Below the pieces are notes generated by a model, which did no database searches, was not told the DNA's origin, and saw nothing but the letters and a program-made list of their open reading frames with translations. A stretch of DNA of 37,495 nucleotides from Bacillota bacterium (GTDB lineage Bacteria > Bacillota > Clostridia > Tissierellales > Tissierellaceae), in NCBI GenBank assembly GCA_030602225.1, contig JAUWAD010000010.1, forward strand, positions 1-37,495, written 5' to 3'. This document shows positions 14,871 through 36,554 of the stretch, one piece after another; position 1 is the first letter of the stretch, and each line of letters starts with the position of its first letter. Both the position numbers and the translations under genes were made by a program.

Positions 14871-14889
14871 TAAAAAACATCAGAATACA

Positions 14890-14999
14890 TCATCTTCTTC
14901 CATCCAGACTTTAACTGTCGGCTCTGGAATCACACCAGATCAACCATTCGGTTCGCGGGCTTTACCGCCGGTGAGGACTTGCACCTCGCCCTGAAGATA
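14890..14999 (-). promoter_or_regulatory. FMN riboswitch (RFN element) controlling ribU
   Basis: The minus strand carries the conserved RFN blocks in order: TCTTCAGGGCGAGGTG, ACCGGCGGTAAAGCCCGCGA, GGTGTGATTCCAGAGCCGAC and AGTCTGGATGGAAGAAGA. The 5' TCTTC and 3' GAAGA close P1. FMN binding should favour the following terminator and switch off riboflavin import. Confidence 0.97.
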
Positions 15000-15010
15000 T
15001 ATCTAGTATT

Positions 15011-19464: not shown

Positions 19465-22218
19465 TTAATCCTGGTTTCTAGTCGGATCTCCATGACACTT
19501 TTTGTACTTCTTTCCACTACCGCAAGGGCATGGGTCATTTCTTCCTACCTTCTTTTCAGTATTTACAACCGGTTTCTTTTCAACTTTTCCACCAGCATTA
19601 GTCATTATTGGATTTGCCACTCTTTTTCTTTCCATTCCTTTATTCTCAACAACATGGAATAAGAATCCAACTGTTTCTTCCCATATTCCTCTTGTCATCT
19701 CTTCAAACATATCAAATCCTTCAATCTGATATGCTCTAACTGGATCCTCCTGGCCATATGCTCTTAGACCAATCCCCTGTCTTAGTTGATCCATGGCATC
19801 AATGTGATCCATCCATTTTCTATCAACAACCTGTAAAAGAACAATTCTTTCTATCTCTCTAAATCTTTCAGAACTGAATTCTTTCTCCTTACTATCATAT
19901 CTTTGGAATGCCTTCTCAGTAATATAATCTATTAAGCCTTCCTTTGTAAGGTTTTCAATATCTATGCCAGCAAATATTCCCTTGCTAAATCCAAACTGCT
20001 TCATCAAGTAGGCTTCAAGCCCTTCGAAATCCCATTCTTCGGGGTACTTAGCCTGTCTAGTGTAGATTTCAACATTTTCAGAAATTAGATTTGATACCAT
20101 TTCCTGAATGTGATCCTTTAAGTCTTCACCTTCTAGAACCTTTCTTCTTTCACCATACATTATTTCCCTTTGCTTATTCATAACATCATCGTATTTTAGT
20201 ACGTGTTTTCTTATGGCAAAGTTGTTGCCCTCAACTTTTCTTTGGGCTCCTTCAATGGTCTTTGTCAATAATGCATGCTCCAGTGGTTCATCATCTGGCA
20301 TATTCATGCTGTCAATAATTCCTCTGATTCTTTCACCAGCAAATAGTCTCATAAGGTCATCCTCTAGGGAAATATAGAATCTGGAGCTACCAGGGTCTCC
20401 CTGACGGCCTGAACGACCTCTTAACTGATTATCTATACGCCTTGACTCATGCCTCTCTGTACCGATGATATGAAGCCCACCTGCACTAACAACTCTTTCA
20501 TGCTCTTGTCTTGTTTCACCTTCGAATTTCTCCACAAGTTGGTGGTATACTCTTCTTGCTTCTAGGATTTCTGCATCATCAGTATCAAAGAAACCATCAA
20601 CCACAGCGATTATATCTTCAGCATATCCTCTTTTTTTCATTTCGTCCTTTGCCATGTACTCAGTATTACCTCCAAGGACAATATCAGTACCACGACCAGC
20701 CATATTTGTTGCTATAGTAACAGAACCATATCTACCTGCCTGTGCTACAATTTCAGCTTCTCTTTCATGCTGCTTGGCATTTAGGACTTCATGCTTAATG
20801 CCTTCTTTCTTTAACATTTTAGATAACAGTTCTGATCTTTCTATTGTAATTGTACCAACTAGAATTGGCTGACCTAGTTGATGCTTTTCCTTTATTTCAT
20901 TTACTACTGCCTTAAATTTTCCTTCCTCTGTCTTGTAAACATTATCGGGAAGATCAATTCTTATAACTGGCTTGTTTGTAGGTATTTCCACAACATCCAT
21001 GTTATAGATTTCTCTAAACTCTGATTCTTCAGTTTTTGCAGTACCTGTCATACCTGATAACTTATCATACATCCTAAAGTAATTCTGGAATGTTATTGTT
21101 GCCAGTGTCTTTGATTCGCTTCTTACATCCAATTTTTCTTTAGCTTCAATGGCTTGATGTAAACCATTGGAATATCTTCTACCTAGCATTAGTCTGCCGG
21201 TAAATTCATCAACGATAATTACCTCTCCATCTTTTACAACATAGTCTATATCTTTTTTCATTATGCTTCTTGCTTTTATTGCCTGATTAATATGATGGGC
21301 AATTTCCATATTTTCCATGTCAGCTAAATTATCTAGCCCAAAAAAGCTCTCAGCTCTTTCAGTACCTTTTTCCGTCAAGGAAATACTCTTTGCCTTTTCA
21401 TCAATAAGATAATCCACTGTTTCTTCTTTGAATTCCCTATTAAATGGATCTTGCTTCTTCTCATCAGGATCTATAAATCTATATGAAAGTGTTCTTGCAA
21501 AGTTATCCGCCATTTCATATAGTTTTGTTGATTTATCACCCTTTCCAGAAATAATCAATGGGGTCCTTGCCTCATCCACTAGAATTGAGTCAACCTCATC
21601 CACTATAGCGTAGTAGAGATTTCTTTGAACCATCTCACTCTTATAAATAACCATGTTATCTCTAAGATAGTCAAAACCAAACTCATTGTTTGTTCCATAA
21701 GTTATATCTGCTTCATATTGTAATTTTCTTTCTGAGCTGGAAAGTCCATGTACAACACAACCTACCTTTAATCCAAGAAACTCATAAACCTTCCCCATCC
21801 ACTGGCGGTCACGTTTTGCAAGATAATCATTTACGGTTACAACATGAACTCCAAGACCTGTTATGGCATTTAGATATGCTGGCAAGGTGGCAACAAGGGT
21901 CTTACCTTCACCTGTTTTCATCTCTGCAATTCTTCCTTGGTGAAGAATTATTCCGCCATAAACCTGAACTGGAAAGTGTTTCATTCCCAATACTCTATGG
22001 GAAGCTTCCCTAACCACTGCAAATGCCTCAGGAAGTATGTCATCTAGCTTTTCTCCACTTGAAAATCTATCCTTGAATTCTTGTGTCTTTCTTCTTAACT
22101 CTTCATCATTTAATTTTGATATGCTTTCCTCAAGGGAAAGAACTTTATTTACTGTTGAATCTAATTTCTTTAACTCTCTATCACTATACGAGCCAAAGAC
22201 CTTATCAAACAATCCCAT
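19465..22218 (-). CDS. secA: Preprotein translocase ATPase SecA
   Basis: This 917-residue motor pushes unfolded preproteins through SecYEG. In order: NBD1 with Walker [10 protein letters not shown], the Walker B region [21 protein letters not shown], the preprotein crosslinking domain, NBD2 with the [14 protein letters not shown] and [23 protein letters not shown] motifs, helical scaffold and wing domains, and a C-terminal zinc-binding SEC-C tail ([17 protein letters not shown]) that binds SecB or phospholipid/ribosome. The ATG at 22218 (MGLFDKVFG) is chosen because AAAGG is nine bases upstream; an ATG three codons earlier abuts the RBS. It heads the secA-prfB-tex-NAD-kinase operon. Confidence 0.99.
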
Positions 22219-22249
22219 GTGAATCATCCTTTCAAATTAACATCATTTT

Positions 22250-22379: not shown

Positions 22380-23468
22380 TTATTTTACCTCTATGATTTT
22401 TAGATCACTTCCAACTTTAACATCTATTATTCTTACATCAACTGCAGTGGATACATCTTCCCAGCTTCTGTAGTAATAGAATGAAATATTCTCCATACCT
22501 GCTTTTAATGTTTGGAAGACAAATATTCTAGTTCCTCCTGATCCTACCATACCTCCTGATTGACTACTTTGAATAAAATCATCTTCAACTAGTTTTAATA
22601 TGGTTCCATCACTAAACTTAAAATGCCAACTATATCCTGTGGAAGGATTTTCATATAGATTTACTGTCAACTCATTTTCAGAATAATTGTATTCATCCGG
22701 AGTTATCCCAAACATATTCATGGCTCTCATCATCATCGCAACAGCCTCTCCCCTTGTCAATCTATTATGGGGCATGAAATTTCCATTATTTCCCTTTAAT
22801 ATTCCCAGAACCCTTAATCTGTAGATAAATCCCAGCTCTTCTTCTGATAATAAGTCATCATCAAGAAAAACAGTAATTTCATCAGTTAATTCTTCACTTT
22901 GGATTCCTAGAGTTCTGGCTAGCATCAATGCAAATTCCAATCTGGTTAATGGTTCACTTCCATATGTTTGATTCCTAAAAGCTATGCTAAGTGGTATTTT
23001 TTCACTTATTTGGATCCTAGCCCAATTTGGTATCAAACTATAATCCAACTTTGCATCTTCATCCACAATACCATTCCATTCAGTCATGCAATTTACAAGC
23101 CTTGCTAATAATAGGACGCCTTCTGTTCCTGAAATATTGTTGTTTGGTCTAAAGGTTCCATCTGGATATCCATTGATTAATCCCCAATCAAATCCATTTA
23201 AAACCTCTTCCTTGCTCCAATGATCCTCCAGGTCAGCAAATCTGTTTTCCATTCTTTCTCTGACCCTTTCCATCATCTGTAAGTATGCTTCTCCATCAAT
23301 ATGAAGTCTTTTGTTTAGCTCTGATCTTGCTTGCAGCTGATCTGCATCTTTTATATTGCTTTGAATTCTATCTCTATCATGGATTGCTGTTTCGCTCCCG
23401 TAAGAATATGAAATACCTAATGACAGAATCATGGCAATAACAATAACAACAACAATAATTTTTTTCAC
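22380..23468 (-). CDS. Secreted SLH-anchored protein with C-terminal chagasin-like (inhibitor I42) domain
   Basis: From a GTG at 23468 (GGGGGTGA five bases upstream) the product is 362 residues. Residues 1-24 are a signal peptide (MKK, hydrophobic core, SYSYG). A charged helical stretch (about 28-76) precedes three SLH repeats: 77-124 (FADLEDHWSKEEV, GLINGYPDGTFRPNNNISGTE), 145-190 (divergent; LTRLEFALMLARTLGI), and 200-250 (LGILKGNNGNFMPHNRLTRGEA). SLH domains bind secondary wall polymers. The C-terminal domain (about 263-362) shows all three chagasin loops: NPSTGY (274-279), GSGG (309-312) and RSW (334-336, for RPW/F). Chagasins inhibit papain-like cysteine proteases. The inhibitory role is inferred from motifs. 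It is preceded by a c-di-GMP-II riboswitch and sits alone between hpf and secA. Confidence 0.88.
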   Translation of the reverse strand: MKKIIVVVIVIAMILSLGISYSYGSETAIHDRDRIQSNIKDADQLQARSELNKRLHIDGEAYLQMMERVRERMENRFADLEDHWSKEEVLNGFDWGLINGYPDGTFRPNNNISGTEGVLLLARLVNCMTEWNGIVDEDAKLDYSLIPNWARIQISEKIPLSIAFRNQTYGSEPLTRLEFALMLARTLGIQSEELTDEITVFLDDDLLSEEELGFIYRLRVLGILKGNNGNFMPHNRLTRGEAVAMMMRAMNMFGITPDEYNYSENELTVNLYENPSTGYSWHFKFSDGTILKLVEDDFIQSSQSGGMVGSGGTRIFVFQTLKAGMENISFYYYRSWEDVSTAVDVRIIDVKVGSDLKIIEVK

Positions 23469-23486
23469 CCTTATCACCCCCATCTA

Positions 23487-23514
23487 AAACAAAAAACCGA
23501 CTGAATAGTCGGTT
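23487..23514 (-). terminator. Expression-platform terminator of the c-di-GMP-II leader
   Basis: AACCGACT (23507-23514) and AGTCGGTT (23495-23502) form a perfect 8-bp stem with a 4-base loop, then TTTTTTGTTTT on the minus strand. The 5' arm is also the conserved 3' strand of the aptamer, so the two folds exclude each other. Confidence 0.9.
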
Positions 23515-23575
23515 ACGCTACTGGCTCATCTAGGGATAAGGCGTCCAATATACCCTGAATTCTCAGCCTCTACTT
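23507..23575 (-). promoter_or_regulatory. Cyclic di-GMP-II riboswitch upstream of the SLH-chagasin gene
   Basis: The minus strand carries the features I know from class II c-di-GMP aptamers: TGA-GAAT kink-turn-like stretch, GGGTATATTGG (compare GGGTTTAAATTGG), then ACGC (23541-23544) pairing with GCGT four bases, enclosing a hairpin CTTATC-CCTA-GATGAG, the AGTA linker, and finally AACCGACT. The ACGC/GCGT pair replaces the usual GCAC/GTGC, a covarying change. The 3' strand AACCGACT is needed both for the aptamer pseudoknot and for the terminator, which predicts that c-di-GMP turns the gene on. Identification is by motif recall, not by a covariance search. Confidence 0.83.
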
Positions 23576-23583
23576 ACACATTA

Positions 23584-23612
23584 TATATACCCATTTAACG
23601 CTGATACTTCAA
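23584..23612 (-). promoter_or_regulatory. Promoter of the c-di-GMP-controlled leader
   Basis: On the minus strand the -35 TTGAAG (23607-23612) is 17 bases from the -10 TATATA (23584-23589). Transcription near 23577 would start two to three bases before the aptamer, giving a leader of about 110 bases. Confidence 0.6.
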
Positions 23613-23658: not shown

Positions 23659-23686
23659 TAAAAAAGACAGGGATTCTATCCCTGTC
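23659..23686 (-). terminator. Intrinsic terminator of hpf
   Basis: GACAGGGAT and ATCCCTGTC form a perfect 9-bp stem with a 3-base loop on the minus strand, followed by TTTTTTAAG. Confidence 0.92.
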
Positions 23687-23699
23687 CATGTATTTATCT

Positions 23700-24236
23700 T
23701 TAGAAGACCTCTGGTTCTATTAAGCCATAATTCCCGTCTTTTCTCTTGTATACCACTGATACATCTTCAGTTTCTGCATCCATGAATACAAAGAAATTAT
23801 GTCTTAGTAATTCCATTTGTAGAATTGCTTCATCCGCTGACATTGGCTTAAGCCCAAATCTCTTTCTTCTTACTAGTCTTGGTTTATCATCCTCTTCCTC
23901 TTGAGTCAATGGAGGTACATTATCAAACCTAATTGTCTCGTTATTTTGGTATCTTTTCTGAAGTTTTGTCTTATGCTTTCTAATTTGTCTTTCAAGTACA
24001 TCAACAGTTTTGTCAATAGAAGCATACATATCATCACTAGATTCCTCTGCCCTTAGGATTGTGCCGGGAAGGTTTATGGTAACTTCGATGATCTTTCTGT
24101 TCTTCTCTGTACTGAAAGTTACATTCCCTGAGATATCTGTCTGAAAGTACTTTTCTAGTTTACCTAGCTTCTTTTCAGTAACATCTCTTAATGCATCCGT
24201 TACCTCCATGTTCTTTCCAGTATAATTCATTTTCAT
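23700..24236 (-). CDS. hpf: Ribosome hibernation promoting factor, long form (HPF/RaiA)
   Basis: This 178-residue long HPF dimerises 70S ribosomes into inactive 100S particles in stationary phase. The N-terminal domain (1-100) shows YTGKNMEVTDALRDVTEKKLGKLEKYF and the basic helix RQIRKHKTKLQKRY. After an acidic linker, the C-terminal dimerisation domain (about 122-178; VRRKRFGLKPMSADEAILQMELLRHNFFVFMD) is complete. The ATG at 24236 is chosen because AAAGGAG lies eight bases upstream; the earlier in-frame ATG at 24254 precedes that RBS. In Firmicutes hpf usually sits next to secA; here a surface-protein gene intervenes. Its promoter carries a 19-bp palindrome. Confidence 0.97.
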   Translation of the reverse strand: MKMNYTGKNMEVTDALRDVTEKKLGKLEKYFQTDISGNVTFSTEKNRKIIEVTINLPGTILRAEESSDDMYASIDKTVDVLERQIRKHKTKLQKRYQNNETIRFDNVPPLTQEEEDDKPRLVRRKRFGLKPMSADEAILQMELLRHNFFVFMDAETEDVSVVYKRKDGNYGLIEPEVF

Positions 24237-24253
24237 AAACCCAGCTCCTTTCA

Positions 24254-24273
24254 TATAAGTTTTACAACTTATA
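24254..24273 (-). other. Hairpin in the hpf leader
   Basis: TATAAGTT and AACTTATA are perfect 8-base inverted arms with a 4-base loop, about six bases upstream of the hpf RBS. It is AT-rich and lacks a following T run, so it is not a terminator; it could be an mRNA-stability or operator element. Confidence 0.45.
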
Positions 24274-27308: not shown

Positions 27309-28997
27309 ATGACTAATTTTGATTTTAATGCAATAAAACGACTGGATAATTCAGTCACAAAAAAACTTATACAGTATATTAATAGCGATAGAAATTTGGA
27401 TGAAATCTTCATAAACCTTAGAAGTAAATATCCTTTAATAGAGAACAGCAATTTTAGACTGCCCTATATTATGTGGCTATGTTGTGACTATAAGGATAAG
27501 GATAATCTTACTTATATAGATAAGCTAATCGCCCATGACGCTACCCTTACTCCCCAGGAGATTAGTATTCTATTGGATAAAAAAGACTCTTATGTTTCAA
27601 TATTTAGGGTTAAATCCACTAAGGGTTTAAAGACAAATGTGTTTGATCACATCCTAAAGAAGGGTTACCAACTAGATGAGTATTTCCAACAAGGTGTAGT
27701 CACTAAGGGAGACTTCATAATTGGAAGGGTAGGCAATGTCCTTGGTTCGAGAATGTTCTTAGGCGAGATAAATTTTGTTAACAAATCTACTCTTAATATA
27801 ATCCTAAGACTTATACTAAAAGACTATAATACCAAAAACCAAAATCACACTGAAAGTGGACTATATCAATATCTAAAGAATGAGAATCTCTCAGTTTACA
27901 GCTATTATCTTAAAGCAAGCCTGGATCTACTTGAAGGCTCAGATGAGTACCTTCCACCAATCTATTCAGAGCTGGAGACTTTTCAGGAATATCTAAATAC
28001 AAAAAGAGACTCTGATGTGGTGCATAACTATGTAAAAGCTCTATGGGAATTAAATAACTTCTATCTTCATAATAAGAATATCGATTTTATGAAGATAAAC
28101 GAAATGGATATTGTGGACTTTTTTGATTATGCTATTCTATTTAGATTTATATCCAATAAGGATGAATTCAGAGTATTCTACAATGCTCTTAAAGAGTATC
28201 TATTATTTAAGTACAGGAAAAATCCATCCATTTACTCCAATCAGATCAATACCATAAAAACCATTGGAGAAAACAGCTTCAAGTATATTGATGGTTTTAA
28301 GGATTCCAATATTGTTTCTCAGTTAGACTTCACCCTATCAAGGCAAATCCTAGAATCCTTTAATGATGAAGCAATGAATTATATTGATGATTTCACCAAT
28401 ATGGCCTACCATTTAATTGATTTTGAAGGACTTATCCTCACTCCTGCTAAGGCGTTTATTAAAGTATCTGATATGGAATTGTTAAGATCATCATTTAATG
28501 GAGACTACAAATTGCTTTTTTCTGTACCCAACAAAATGAAGGTTCCGATTATTGAACTATTCTATCAATTAGGATTAAGTATGGGTATTTTTGAAATCAA
28601 AAATGGTAGATTAATCCTTTCAGAAGCATCAGATGATTACTTTTTAATTAGTGATAGTAATAAGATTTGGAACCATATAAGAACTTTATTTGAAAGTGAA
28701 ACTATCAATATGACAATGAGTTTTGATATTGTAAGGGCTGAGAAATTTAAGCTAACAATATTTGAGATACTAAGTAGCTGCCCATTATCTTTATTGAATG
28801 AATTTGATAAGTTCAATAAGTATAAGTTTAAGTTGGAAGAAGTTATGCTATATATAAGGTATCTATCATTTATGGGTATAATCTCACAGGATTCATACTA
28901 CGGAAAAGTAAGTTTGACCCAATTGGGTTCAGTCTTATTACCAAGTCTAATGTCTTTGAATGAATCAAATGAATCCCAAATAATTAAGCTCATATGA
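27309..28997 (+). CDS. Uncharacterised 562-residue protein
   Basis: I do not recognise the family. It has no signal peptide or membrane segment and is rich in Asn, Asp, Lys, Ile and aromatic residues, so it is probably a cytosolic, mostly helical protein. Residues about 90-155 (SYVSIFRVKS, GDFIIGRVGNVLGSRMFLGEINF) look like a small beta-rich domain, the middle (about 190-340) is helical, and the C-terminal 100 residues end in a winged-helix-like pattern (LEEVMLYIRYLSFMGIISQDSYYGKVSLTQLGSVLLPSL). The AGGAGG RBS and a good promoter show it is expressed. It is first in an operon with an S9 peptidase (24 bases on) and a YihY protein. Confidence 0.85.
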   Translation: MTNFDFNAIKRLDNSVTKKLIQYINSDRNLDEIFINLRSKYPLIENSNFRLPYIMWLCCDYKDKDNLTYIDKLIAHDATLTPQEISILLDKKDSYVSIFRVKSTKGLKTNVFDHILKKGYQLDEYFQQGVVTKGDFIIGRVGNVLGSRMFLGEINFVNKSTLNIILRLILKDYNTKNQNHTESGLYQYLKNENLSVYSYYLKASLDLLEGSDEYLPPIYSELETFQEYLNTKRDSDVVHNYVKALWELNNFYLHNKNIDFMKINEMDIVDFFDYAILFRFISNKDEFRVFYNALKEYLLFKYRKNPSIYSNQINTIKTIGENSFKYIDGFKDSNIVSQLDFTLSRQILESFNDEAMNYIDDFTNMAYHLIDFEGLILTPAKAFIKVSDMELLRSSFNGDYKLLFSVPNKMKVPIIELFYQLGLSMGIFEIKNGRLILSEASDDYFLISDSNKIWNHIRTLFESETINMTMSFDIVRAEKFKLTIFEILSSCPLSLLNEFDKFNKYKFKLEEVMLYIRYLSFMGIISQDSYYGKVSLTQLGSVLLPSLMSLNESNESQIIKLI

Positions 28998-36157: not shown

Positions 36158-36172
36158 GAGTTTGCACTACAC

Positions 36173-36268
36173 CTCATCTTCCAGGAGAATTCTCCTGTAG
36201 GAATTAGCACCTGTATAACCAGGTTGCTGGGTTTCATCGGGCCTATCCCTCCACCTCTCTTGATAAGG
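36173..36268 (-). promoter_or_regulatory. SAM-I (S-box) riboswitch of metK
   Basis: The minus strand shows CTTATCAAGAGAGGTGGAGGGA, then GGCCCGATGAAACCCAGCAACC, GGTGCTAATTCC and the closing GGAAGATGAG, the diagnostic S-box blocks in order. CTTATC and GATGAG form P1. SAM binding should promote termination before metK. Confidence 0.98.
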
Positions 36269-36297
36269 TAATCAAGATTAAATTTTCACTGATGAAA

Positions 36298-36405: not shown

Positions 36406-36426
36406 CGTTACATAATTTAATTAAGT

Positions 36427-36533
36427 ATCTTCAGGGCAGGGTGAAATTCCCTACCGGCGGTATAGCCCGCGAACCGTAAGGTTGATTCGGTTGAATTCCG
36501 AAGCCGACAGTAAAGTCTGGATGAAAGAAGATT
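36427..36533 (+). promoter_or_regulatory. FMN riboswitch (RFN element) controlling ribD
   Basis: The plus strand carries ATCTTCAGGGCAGGGTGA, ACCGGCGGTATAGCCCGCGA, GTTGAATTCCGAAGCCGAC and AGTCTGGATGAAAGAAGAT, the RFN blocks in order; ATCTTC and GAAGAT close P1. FMN should cause termination before the riboflavin biosynthesis genes. Confidence 0.98.
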
Positions 36534-36554
36534 TGTTTTTTTGTGTGTATTTTT

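Follow-up and report, generated by a model that had tools for sequence, protein, structure and literature searches.

The stretch of DNA analysed here, which we call the window, spans 37,495 nucleotides of a Gudongella genome and carries on its minus strand a coding sequence (22380..23468) for a protein that joins S-layer homology (SLH) repeats to a chagasin domain of inhibitor family I42. The open reading frame runs from a GTG at 23468, or from an in-frame ATG at 23483, down to 22380, and a plus-strand frame at the same locus was ruled out by its many stops. Because the GTG is preceded by a good ribosome site, GGGGGTGAT, and none is visible ahead of the ATG, the GTG is probably the true start, and the gene end at 23468 proposed in an earlier, sequence-only reading of this DNA is probably right; residue numbers below are counted from the ATG, and 5 must be subtracted to count from the GTG. 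The gene lies between hpf (S30AE, 23700-24254) and secA (19465-22227). It looks like a single-gene unit, with a terminator-like hairpin 3′ of hpf separating it from that gene (23665..23687, minus strand) and an extended -10 promoter-like site standing ahead of secA. Across the region, terminator-like sites number 4 against 0.7 expected, and promoter-like sites are at chance level (9 against 8.4 in shuffles). NCBIfam offers no name for the product. Farther along the window, on the plus strand at 27309-28997, lies the gene for a protein of 562 aa that matches no Pfam family (E <= 1).

Upstream of the SLH-I42 gene, at 23498..23580 on the minus strand, the leader matches the aptamer of the c-di-GMP-II riboswitch (Rfam RF01786) over model positions 1-84 of 84, with 45.6 bits and an E-value of 4e-9 in a 281-base search. 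The leader of a homologous gene in another Gudongella genome (locus L024) matches the same model with 41.8 bits (E 1e-5 among 57 kb). Both scores lie under the gathering score of 53.5; hence we call the leaders c-di-GMP-II-like and do not assign them as members, and the window match is absent from a standard Rfam scan at gathering thresholds. The 3′ core of the aptamer, GAGCCAGU..G..AACCG, is present in the window. A terminator-like hairpin, AACCGACTATTCAGTCGGTT with a T-run after it, occupies 23495..23514 (minus strand), and its 5′ arm overlaps the 3′ core of the aptamer. Since AACCGACTATTCAGTCG is common to the hairpin, read from 23514 to 23495, and the 3′ end of the aptamer, the two structures should be mutually exclusive, and this geometry suggests an on-switch. 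A possible but weak promoter, TTGAAG-17-TATATA (23584..23612, minus strand), was noticed by eye and ends just 5′ of the aptamer; it scores 8/12, below the threshold of the promoter scan.

It is conceivable, although we judge it unlikely, that the protein is as described and the leader is a decayed or other-ligand relative of the riboswitch, with the hairpin acting as an attenuator. In its favour are the scores under the gathering score in both species and a weak P1 stem, in which non-standard pairs make up 3/11 in the window and 5/11 at L024. Folding energy was rejected as evidence for a riboswitch, being unremarkable in the window, where the leader has z -1.0 if the hairpin is included and -0.6 if it is not; the corresponding values for the L024 leader are -2.1 and -0.6. 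What argues against decay is the size of the match, an E-value of 4e-9 in 281 bases, together with the preservation of GGACGCC and ATGAGCCAGTAGCGTAACCGA, which do not differ between the leaders of two proteins that share 45% identity overall. Furthermore, L024 was the only c-di-GMP-II match (E <= 0.01) among 58 loci totalling 184 kb; none was found at the four SLH-I42 loci of the family that we label f118, which belongs to another class of the same phylum, at 40 other I42 loci, at a broken Gudongella remnant (L025) or at 10 other SLH loci of this genome, in a search that used 1.5 kb flanks, may miss some leaders and leaves 12 I42 loci (L030, L070-L076 and L095-L098) outside. In our reading, transcription of the SLH-I42 gene is probably governed by a c-di-GMP-II-like riboswitch; the sequence-only reading makes no mention of the riboswitch-like leader.

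Elsewhere in the genome, 282,475 bases (L137 and L139 excluded) held no further c-di-GMP riboswitch at the gathering threshold, a threshold that would also miss the window's own leader, and a motif pattern run over 17 own-genome stretches plus the window returned the known leader only. Three GGDEF proteins are encoded in the window and the sampled stretches (308,174 of 2,084,369 bases). Riboswitches of other classes are present as well: in the window, an FMN riboswitch at 14888-15002 (minus strand) before a RibU-like transporter gene, another at 36423-36536 (plus strand) that precedes a ribD-like gene or overlaps its start, and a SAM-I riboswitch at 36171-36269 (minus strand) before a SAM synthetase gene, the three genes being named by eye; and, upstream of another SLH-protein gene of this genome, a Moco riboswitch (L004:578-686, plus strand).

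The inhibitor domain occupies residues 264-357 (22413..22694, minus strand), and is supported by Pfam, by a phmmer search of the PDB and by fold comparison. Pfam Inhibitor_I42 (PF09394) matches residues 270-349 with an E-value of 4.2e-24 and 85.1 bits against a cut-off of 27.2, and the E-values of the I42 and SLH matches exclude chance as their source. The best solved relative by phmmer is the inhibitor ICP of Pseudomonas aeruginosa (2wgn, E 4.8e-9), followed by EhICP2 (3m86), another ICP (2cio) and chagasin. An AlphaFold2 model built from a seven-sequence alignment reached a mean pLDDT of 71.6 and a pTM of 0.60; the model is poor over the signal and linker, and ten-residue blocks of the I42 domain have pLDDT values of 75-93, except for 301-320 (64 and 59), where residues 308-314, close to loop L4, fall below 50. 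When residues 263-358 of the model were compared with the PDB, the highest scores went to EhICP2 (Z 10.5, for 3m86, and 10.2) and chagasin (9.3-9.5; 2nnr, 9.3), so that the comparison proposed in the sequence-only reading yields a chagasin-like domain. Lower scores were obtained for amebosin (7.8), the Leishmania mexicana ICP (7.4) and the P. aeruginosa ICP (6.5); unrelated Ig-like chains begin at about Z 7, and the last of these inhibitors, the closest by sequence, is thus among them.

All three inhibitory loops named in that reading are present on the minus strand: L2 as NPSTGY (residues 279-284, 22632..22649), L4 as VGSGG (22533..22547, with GSGG at residues 314-317) and L6 as RSW, which is RPW in chagasin (residues 339-341, 22461..22469). 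The motifs given for chagasin, together with their roles, in PMC2607524 are NPTTG, GXGG and RPW/F, so that in the window protein a serine replaces T31 and another replaces P92. According to the same source, the T31S change in chagasin is nearly neutral, with a Ki of 11 against 7.6 pM on cruzipain and 4.9 against 7.3 pM on cathepsin L, deletion of T31-T32 costs hundreds-fold in inhibition, and the loss caused by W93A is about 100-fold for cathepsin L but about fourfold for cruzipain. Between the window protein and its homologue at L024, 16/18 loop residues are identical against 27/76 in the rest of the domain (Fisher p 4e-5). As the loops are conserved family-wide, this difference shows, at the level of sequence, that both Gudongella genes are still maintained as chagasins; inhibition itself lies beyond what loop conservation can say.

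The same contrast bears on the idea that the I42 domain has lost its inhibitory function and now serves on the surface as an Ig-like module for binding or structure (an adhesin or an envelope spacer). Ig-like folds often serve as spacers and adhesins. The c-di-GMP-II switches of Clostridioides difficile, moreover, govern a pilin, adhesion and surface proteins, as described in PMC3649979, and the searches set out below found no target enzyme of families C1, C11 or C39_2 in this genome, all of which would suit such a module. A spacer, however, would not need loops so much better conserved than the domain that bears them, and we regard this explanation as rather improbable.

The remainder of the protein is presumably concerned with export and attachment. 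The N-terminus resembles a signal peptide (23394..23468, minus strand), read by eye from the translation as KK, a long hydrophobic stretch and SYSYGS. Three SLH repeats follow on the same strand. Repeat 1 (residues 81-128, 23100..23243) is recognised by Pfam PF00395 and by alignment; repeat 2 (residues 146-194, 22902..23048) is divergent and unscored by Pfam, and was placed by alignment and model; repeat 3 (residues 205-258, 22710..22871) is found by both Pfam and alignment. Pfam gives the SLH family 50.9 bits against a cut-off of 20.8, in two stretches; in a genome-level search, repeat 1 scores 36.9 bits and repeat 3 scores 18.2, below the cut-off by itself. A TRAE-type motif is expected in SLH repeats, and TRxE is kept in two of the three, repeat 2 retaining LTRLE and repeat 3 LTRGE, while repeat 1 has SGTE in its place and lacks the motif arginine. 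All three repeats are visible when the protein is aligned with other three-SLH proteins, and residues 80-260 of the AlphaFold2 model match the SLH trefoil of Bacillus anthracis Sap (3pyw) with Z 14.8 over 167 residues. The three SLH repeats and the fusion to chagasin described in the earlier reading both hold.

The genome is also equipped for the anchoring side of the surface display envisaged there. Besides 24 SLH matches (E <= 0.1, profile search), it encodes the pyruvyl transferase CsaB, identified by TIGR03609 with 301.2 bits against a cut-off of 213.1; its product also matches PF04230, a family with hits in 8/14 control genomes. The csaB gene adjoins a WecB/TagA/CpsF gene that is itself over its cut-off. 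With CsaB encoded, anchoring of the window protein through its SLH repeats is plausible.

Elsewhere in Gudongella, the homologue in the sister genome G004 has an SDR gene on one side and, on the other, a TrkH-like transporter gene from which a small gene separates it (named by eye); the window gene and the L024 gene thus occupy different chromosomal loci, and both have a c-di-GMP-II-like leader. G003 keeps, at the position that the gene occupies in G004, a broken SLH-I42 remnant (L025:1456-1822, minus strand) with large losses and stops, which has lost most of its SLH portion and retains no riboswitch match, and one sister genome has no I42 match, so the gene is dispensable. At the window site, hpf runs directly into secA in G002 and G003 with no trace of a gene, so that, compared with these two genomes, the window carries an insertion there; the contig of G004 stops within hpf. 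Between G000 and G004, hpf is 92% identical and the SLH-I42 protein 45-46%: either the gene relocates, decays and evolves rapidly, or the copies are not orthologues. Such a record would fit an accessory surface trait under outside selection.

Beyond the genus, I42 matches at E <= 0.001 occurred in 3/28 genomes of the family, 7/249 of the order, 30/391 of the class (25 of these over the cut-off) and 22/398 of the phylum, where the class and phylum sets were sampled evenly from larger groups and the four sets overlap. From the matches, 58 I42 loci besides that of the window were retrieved, of which 31 proteins, skewed to long frames, were scanned with Pfam and the rest inspected by eye. The statement in the sequence-only reading that chagasins usually stand alone is only partly true in this phylum, for 22 of the 31 scanned proteins carry an additional SLH domain (5: L024 and, all from f118, L078, L080, L083 and L092), dockerin (7, from seven genomes of one genus, g117: L050, L052, L055 and L057-L060), choline-binding domain (1: L056) or Cu_amine_oxidN1 domain, which we abbreviate CuAO (9: L062, L066, L068, L082, L085, L087, L088, L089 and L091). 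Chagasins with surface modules are therefore common among the longer I42 proteins of the phylum, and SLH is one module of several. Pfam finds a second I42 stretch in six of the seven dockerin proteins, and their L2 motif reads GSTGY in six and NPSTGY in one. I42 also occurs together with PdaC, on CuAO proteins (L066, L068, L082) or SLH proteins (L080, L083, L092), with DUF3298 over the cut-off in five of these six; by its domain content, I42 with PdaC, and in most cases DUF3298, is a shuffled surface cassette.

In a tree of 48 I42 domains (where L089, a CuAO protein by Pfam, is labelled 'other'), those of the Gudongella and f118 SLH proteins stand apart, weakly. A single origin of all SLH-I42 fusions appeared in 0/200 bootstrap trees and is not rejected by the AU test (p 0.097); 90 columns resolve little. 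A pattern scan of contigs, whose two patterns sit in SLH repeat 1 so that unlike fusions would escape it, retrieved one full-length relative, from Gudongella sp. M17C-05 (L032, the same protein as L024); its other 15 loci match outside the I42 domain only. Among viral contigs, 73 pattern matches included no relative.

Which proteases such an inhibitor would face is a separate matter. The sequence-only reading had offered the cell's own wall-associated enzymes of the Cwp84 type as one target and had proposed a search for C1 or C11 peptidases in the same genome. That search, run on a genome that is 96.8% complete, returned no peptidase over the cut-off for C1 (best E 0.06, a short fragment), C11 (best E 0.05) or C39_2, these being the families sought, with C10, C47 and C70 outside the search. 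Nor was there a C1 match at E <= 0.001 in any of the four Gudongella genomes (this one and three sisters), and the C1 model itself found its family in 3/14 control genomes, Lactococcus lactis included, which shows the search to be functional. Since no C1, C11 or C39_2 peptidase was found over the cut-off, a papain-like protease from outside is likelier as the target than one of the cell's own, and the own-protease suggestion is not supported in this genome.

Relatives in f118 may differ in this respect. In two of its genomes, a C1 gene precedes a CuAO-I42 gene by about 100-140 bases on the same strand (G805, L103:1285-3631, plus strand; G680, L104:3-2349, minus strand), likely as an enzyme and inhibitor pair, so self-targeting may exist there; the first of the C1 proteins is C1 plus Lectin_like by Pfam, which we take to be Cwp84-like. 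A C1 match is also present in 3/4 of the f118 genomes that bear SLH-I42. Co-occurrence of I42 and C1 was rejected as evidence for self-targeting, C1 being found in 19/51 I42-positive and 11/29 I42-negative genomes (p 1.0), or, counting only matches that span 180 model positions or more, in 13/51 and 5/29. The 51 positives are all those over the cut-off in the order, class and phylum searches, five class genomes below it being dropped, and the 29 negatives were picked, not at random, from the listed family, order, class and phylum genomes. In another genome (G048, L030:231-1761), a papain-fold gene of C70/C39_2 type, AvrRpt2-like by Pfam, stands directly before a weak I42-like gene that lacks the NPTTG motif. 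The arrangement recalls staphopain/staphostatin operons. For the window protein, the explanation that the same surface inhibitor restrains the cell's own wall-associated cysteine proteases can draw on the two gene pairs of f118, the C1 matches there and the papain-fold neighbour in G048, but with C1, C11 and C39_2 peptidases missing over the cut-off from a nearly complete genome, in a search that left C10, C47 and C70 aside, and with C1 missing from all four Gudongella genomes, we consider it very unlikely.

Building on what was observed directly, namely the architecture, the loop conservation, the predicted folds, the CsaB gene, the leader match and the hairpin overlap, we lean, with some reserve, towards a riboswitch-led, secreted and SLH-anchored inhibitor of outside papain-like proteases, forming part of a sessile-state coat. 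The protein would be secreted, and its three SLH repeats would hold it on the pyruvylated secondary cell-wall polymer. The chagasin domain would plug the active-site cleft of family C1 proteases through L2 (NPSTGY), L4 (VGSGG) and L6 (RSW), the enzymes coming from other microbes, protists, or plant or animal material. At low c-di-GMP, AACCGACT would form the 5′ arm of the terminator and transcription would stop; at high c-di-GMP, the same segment would be sequestered in the aptamer and the polymerase would read through, 'on' by analogy with the type II switches of C. difficile. The four type II switches of that organism are all 'on' by qRT-PCR in the text of PMC3649979, although a figure legend there says 'negatively', contradicting it. 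The result would be an anti-protease coat in the sessile state. More tentatively, and with doubt prevailing, Gudongella may wear its chagasin coat only under the c-di-GMP sessile signal, shielding attached cells and their surface proteins against papain-like proteases of foreign origin, the leader and gene having been kept together as a unit at two sites.

The 2016 paper on Cip1 (PMC5014320) described what bacterial chagasins do as not yet elucidated. A wall-anchored chagasin with an apparent c-di-GMP switch, in a genome where no C1, C11 or C39_2 target of its own was found, points to defence against outside proteases within a sessile programme; if this is true, protease inhibition joins the known outputs of c-di-GMP riboswitches. 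With this leader, what was an odd fusion of domains becomes a circuit that can be tested.

Several known systems share parts of this arrangement. The cyspins carry a chagasin domain. Reportedly, they were described by Meguro et al. in 2011 as cellulosomal cysteine protease inhibitors of Clostridium cellulovorans. They are inhibitory when heterologously expressed and have been proposed to protect the cell and its cellulosome from plant proteases, as related in PMC4305082 and PMC3444338. Like them, the window protein is, by prediction, a secreted cysteine protease inhibitor with a module that anchors it to a surface machine; unlike them, it has SLH repeats where they have a dockerin, and its gene has a riboswitch-like leader. 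An SLH-IPI protein of Clostridium thermocellum likewise unites a peptidase-inhibitor-type Ig domain with SLH repeats (PMC3901451), but IPI is not I42: it has a different Ig-like fold, is a reported inhibitor of subtilisin and not of papain-like enzymes, and no recent common ancestor of the two was found in that work. Among titles and abstract openings, in a search whose coverage left out most subscription journals, no report of an SLH-chagasin combination appeared, the only match for chagasin with S-layer homology concerning IPI, and none combining a riboswitch with a chagasin was found. The closest architectural relatives are the four f118 proteins (L078, L080, L083, L092), in which SLH repeats are followed by I42, both over the cut-off; they differ from the window protein in an I42 domain that is 33-36% identical (three of them), in PdaC over the cut-off in three of the four, and in having no c-di-GMP-II match. 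Cip1 of Pseudomonas syringae, an inhibitor of papain (Ki 3.98 nM) and of immune proteases of tomato (PMC5014320), and the P. aeruginosa ICP are bacterial chagasins too, but they are small, free of anchors and of Gram-negative origin. On the side of regulation, c-di-GMP riboswitches in C. difficile act on a pilin, on putative adhesins and on a metalloprotease of the surface, and its proteins CD2831 and CD3246 are wall-bound and turned on by c-di-GMP by way of class II riboswitches, in a circuit that includes surface proteolysis (PMC3649979, PMC4591827). Those two, however, are sortase-anchored putative adhesins acting with a metalloprotease, whereas the window product is predicted to be a protease inhibitor borne on SLH repeats. 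Chagasins on surface modules, SLH repeats joined to another kind of inhibitor domain and c-di-GMP-II control of surface proteins are thus each already known singly; what is new here, as read from the DNA, is a c-di-GMP-II-like leader on an SLH-I42 gene.
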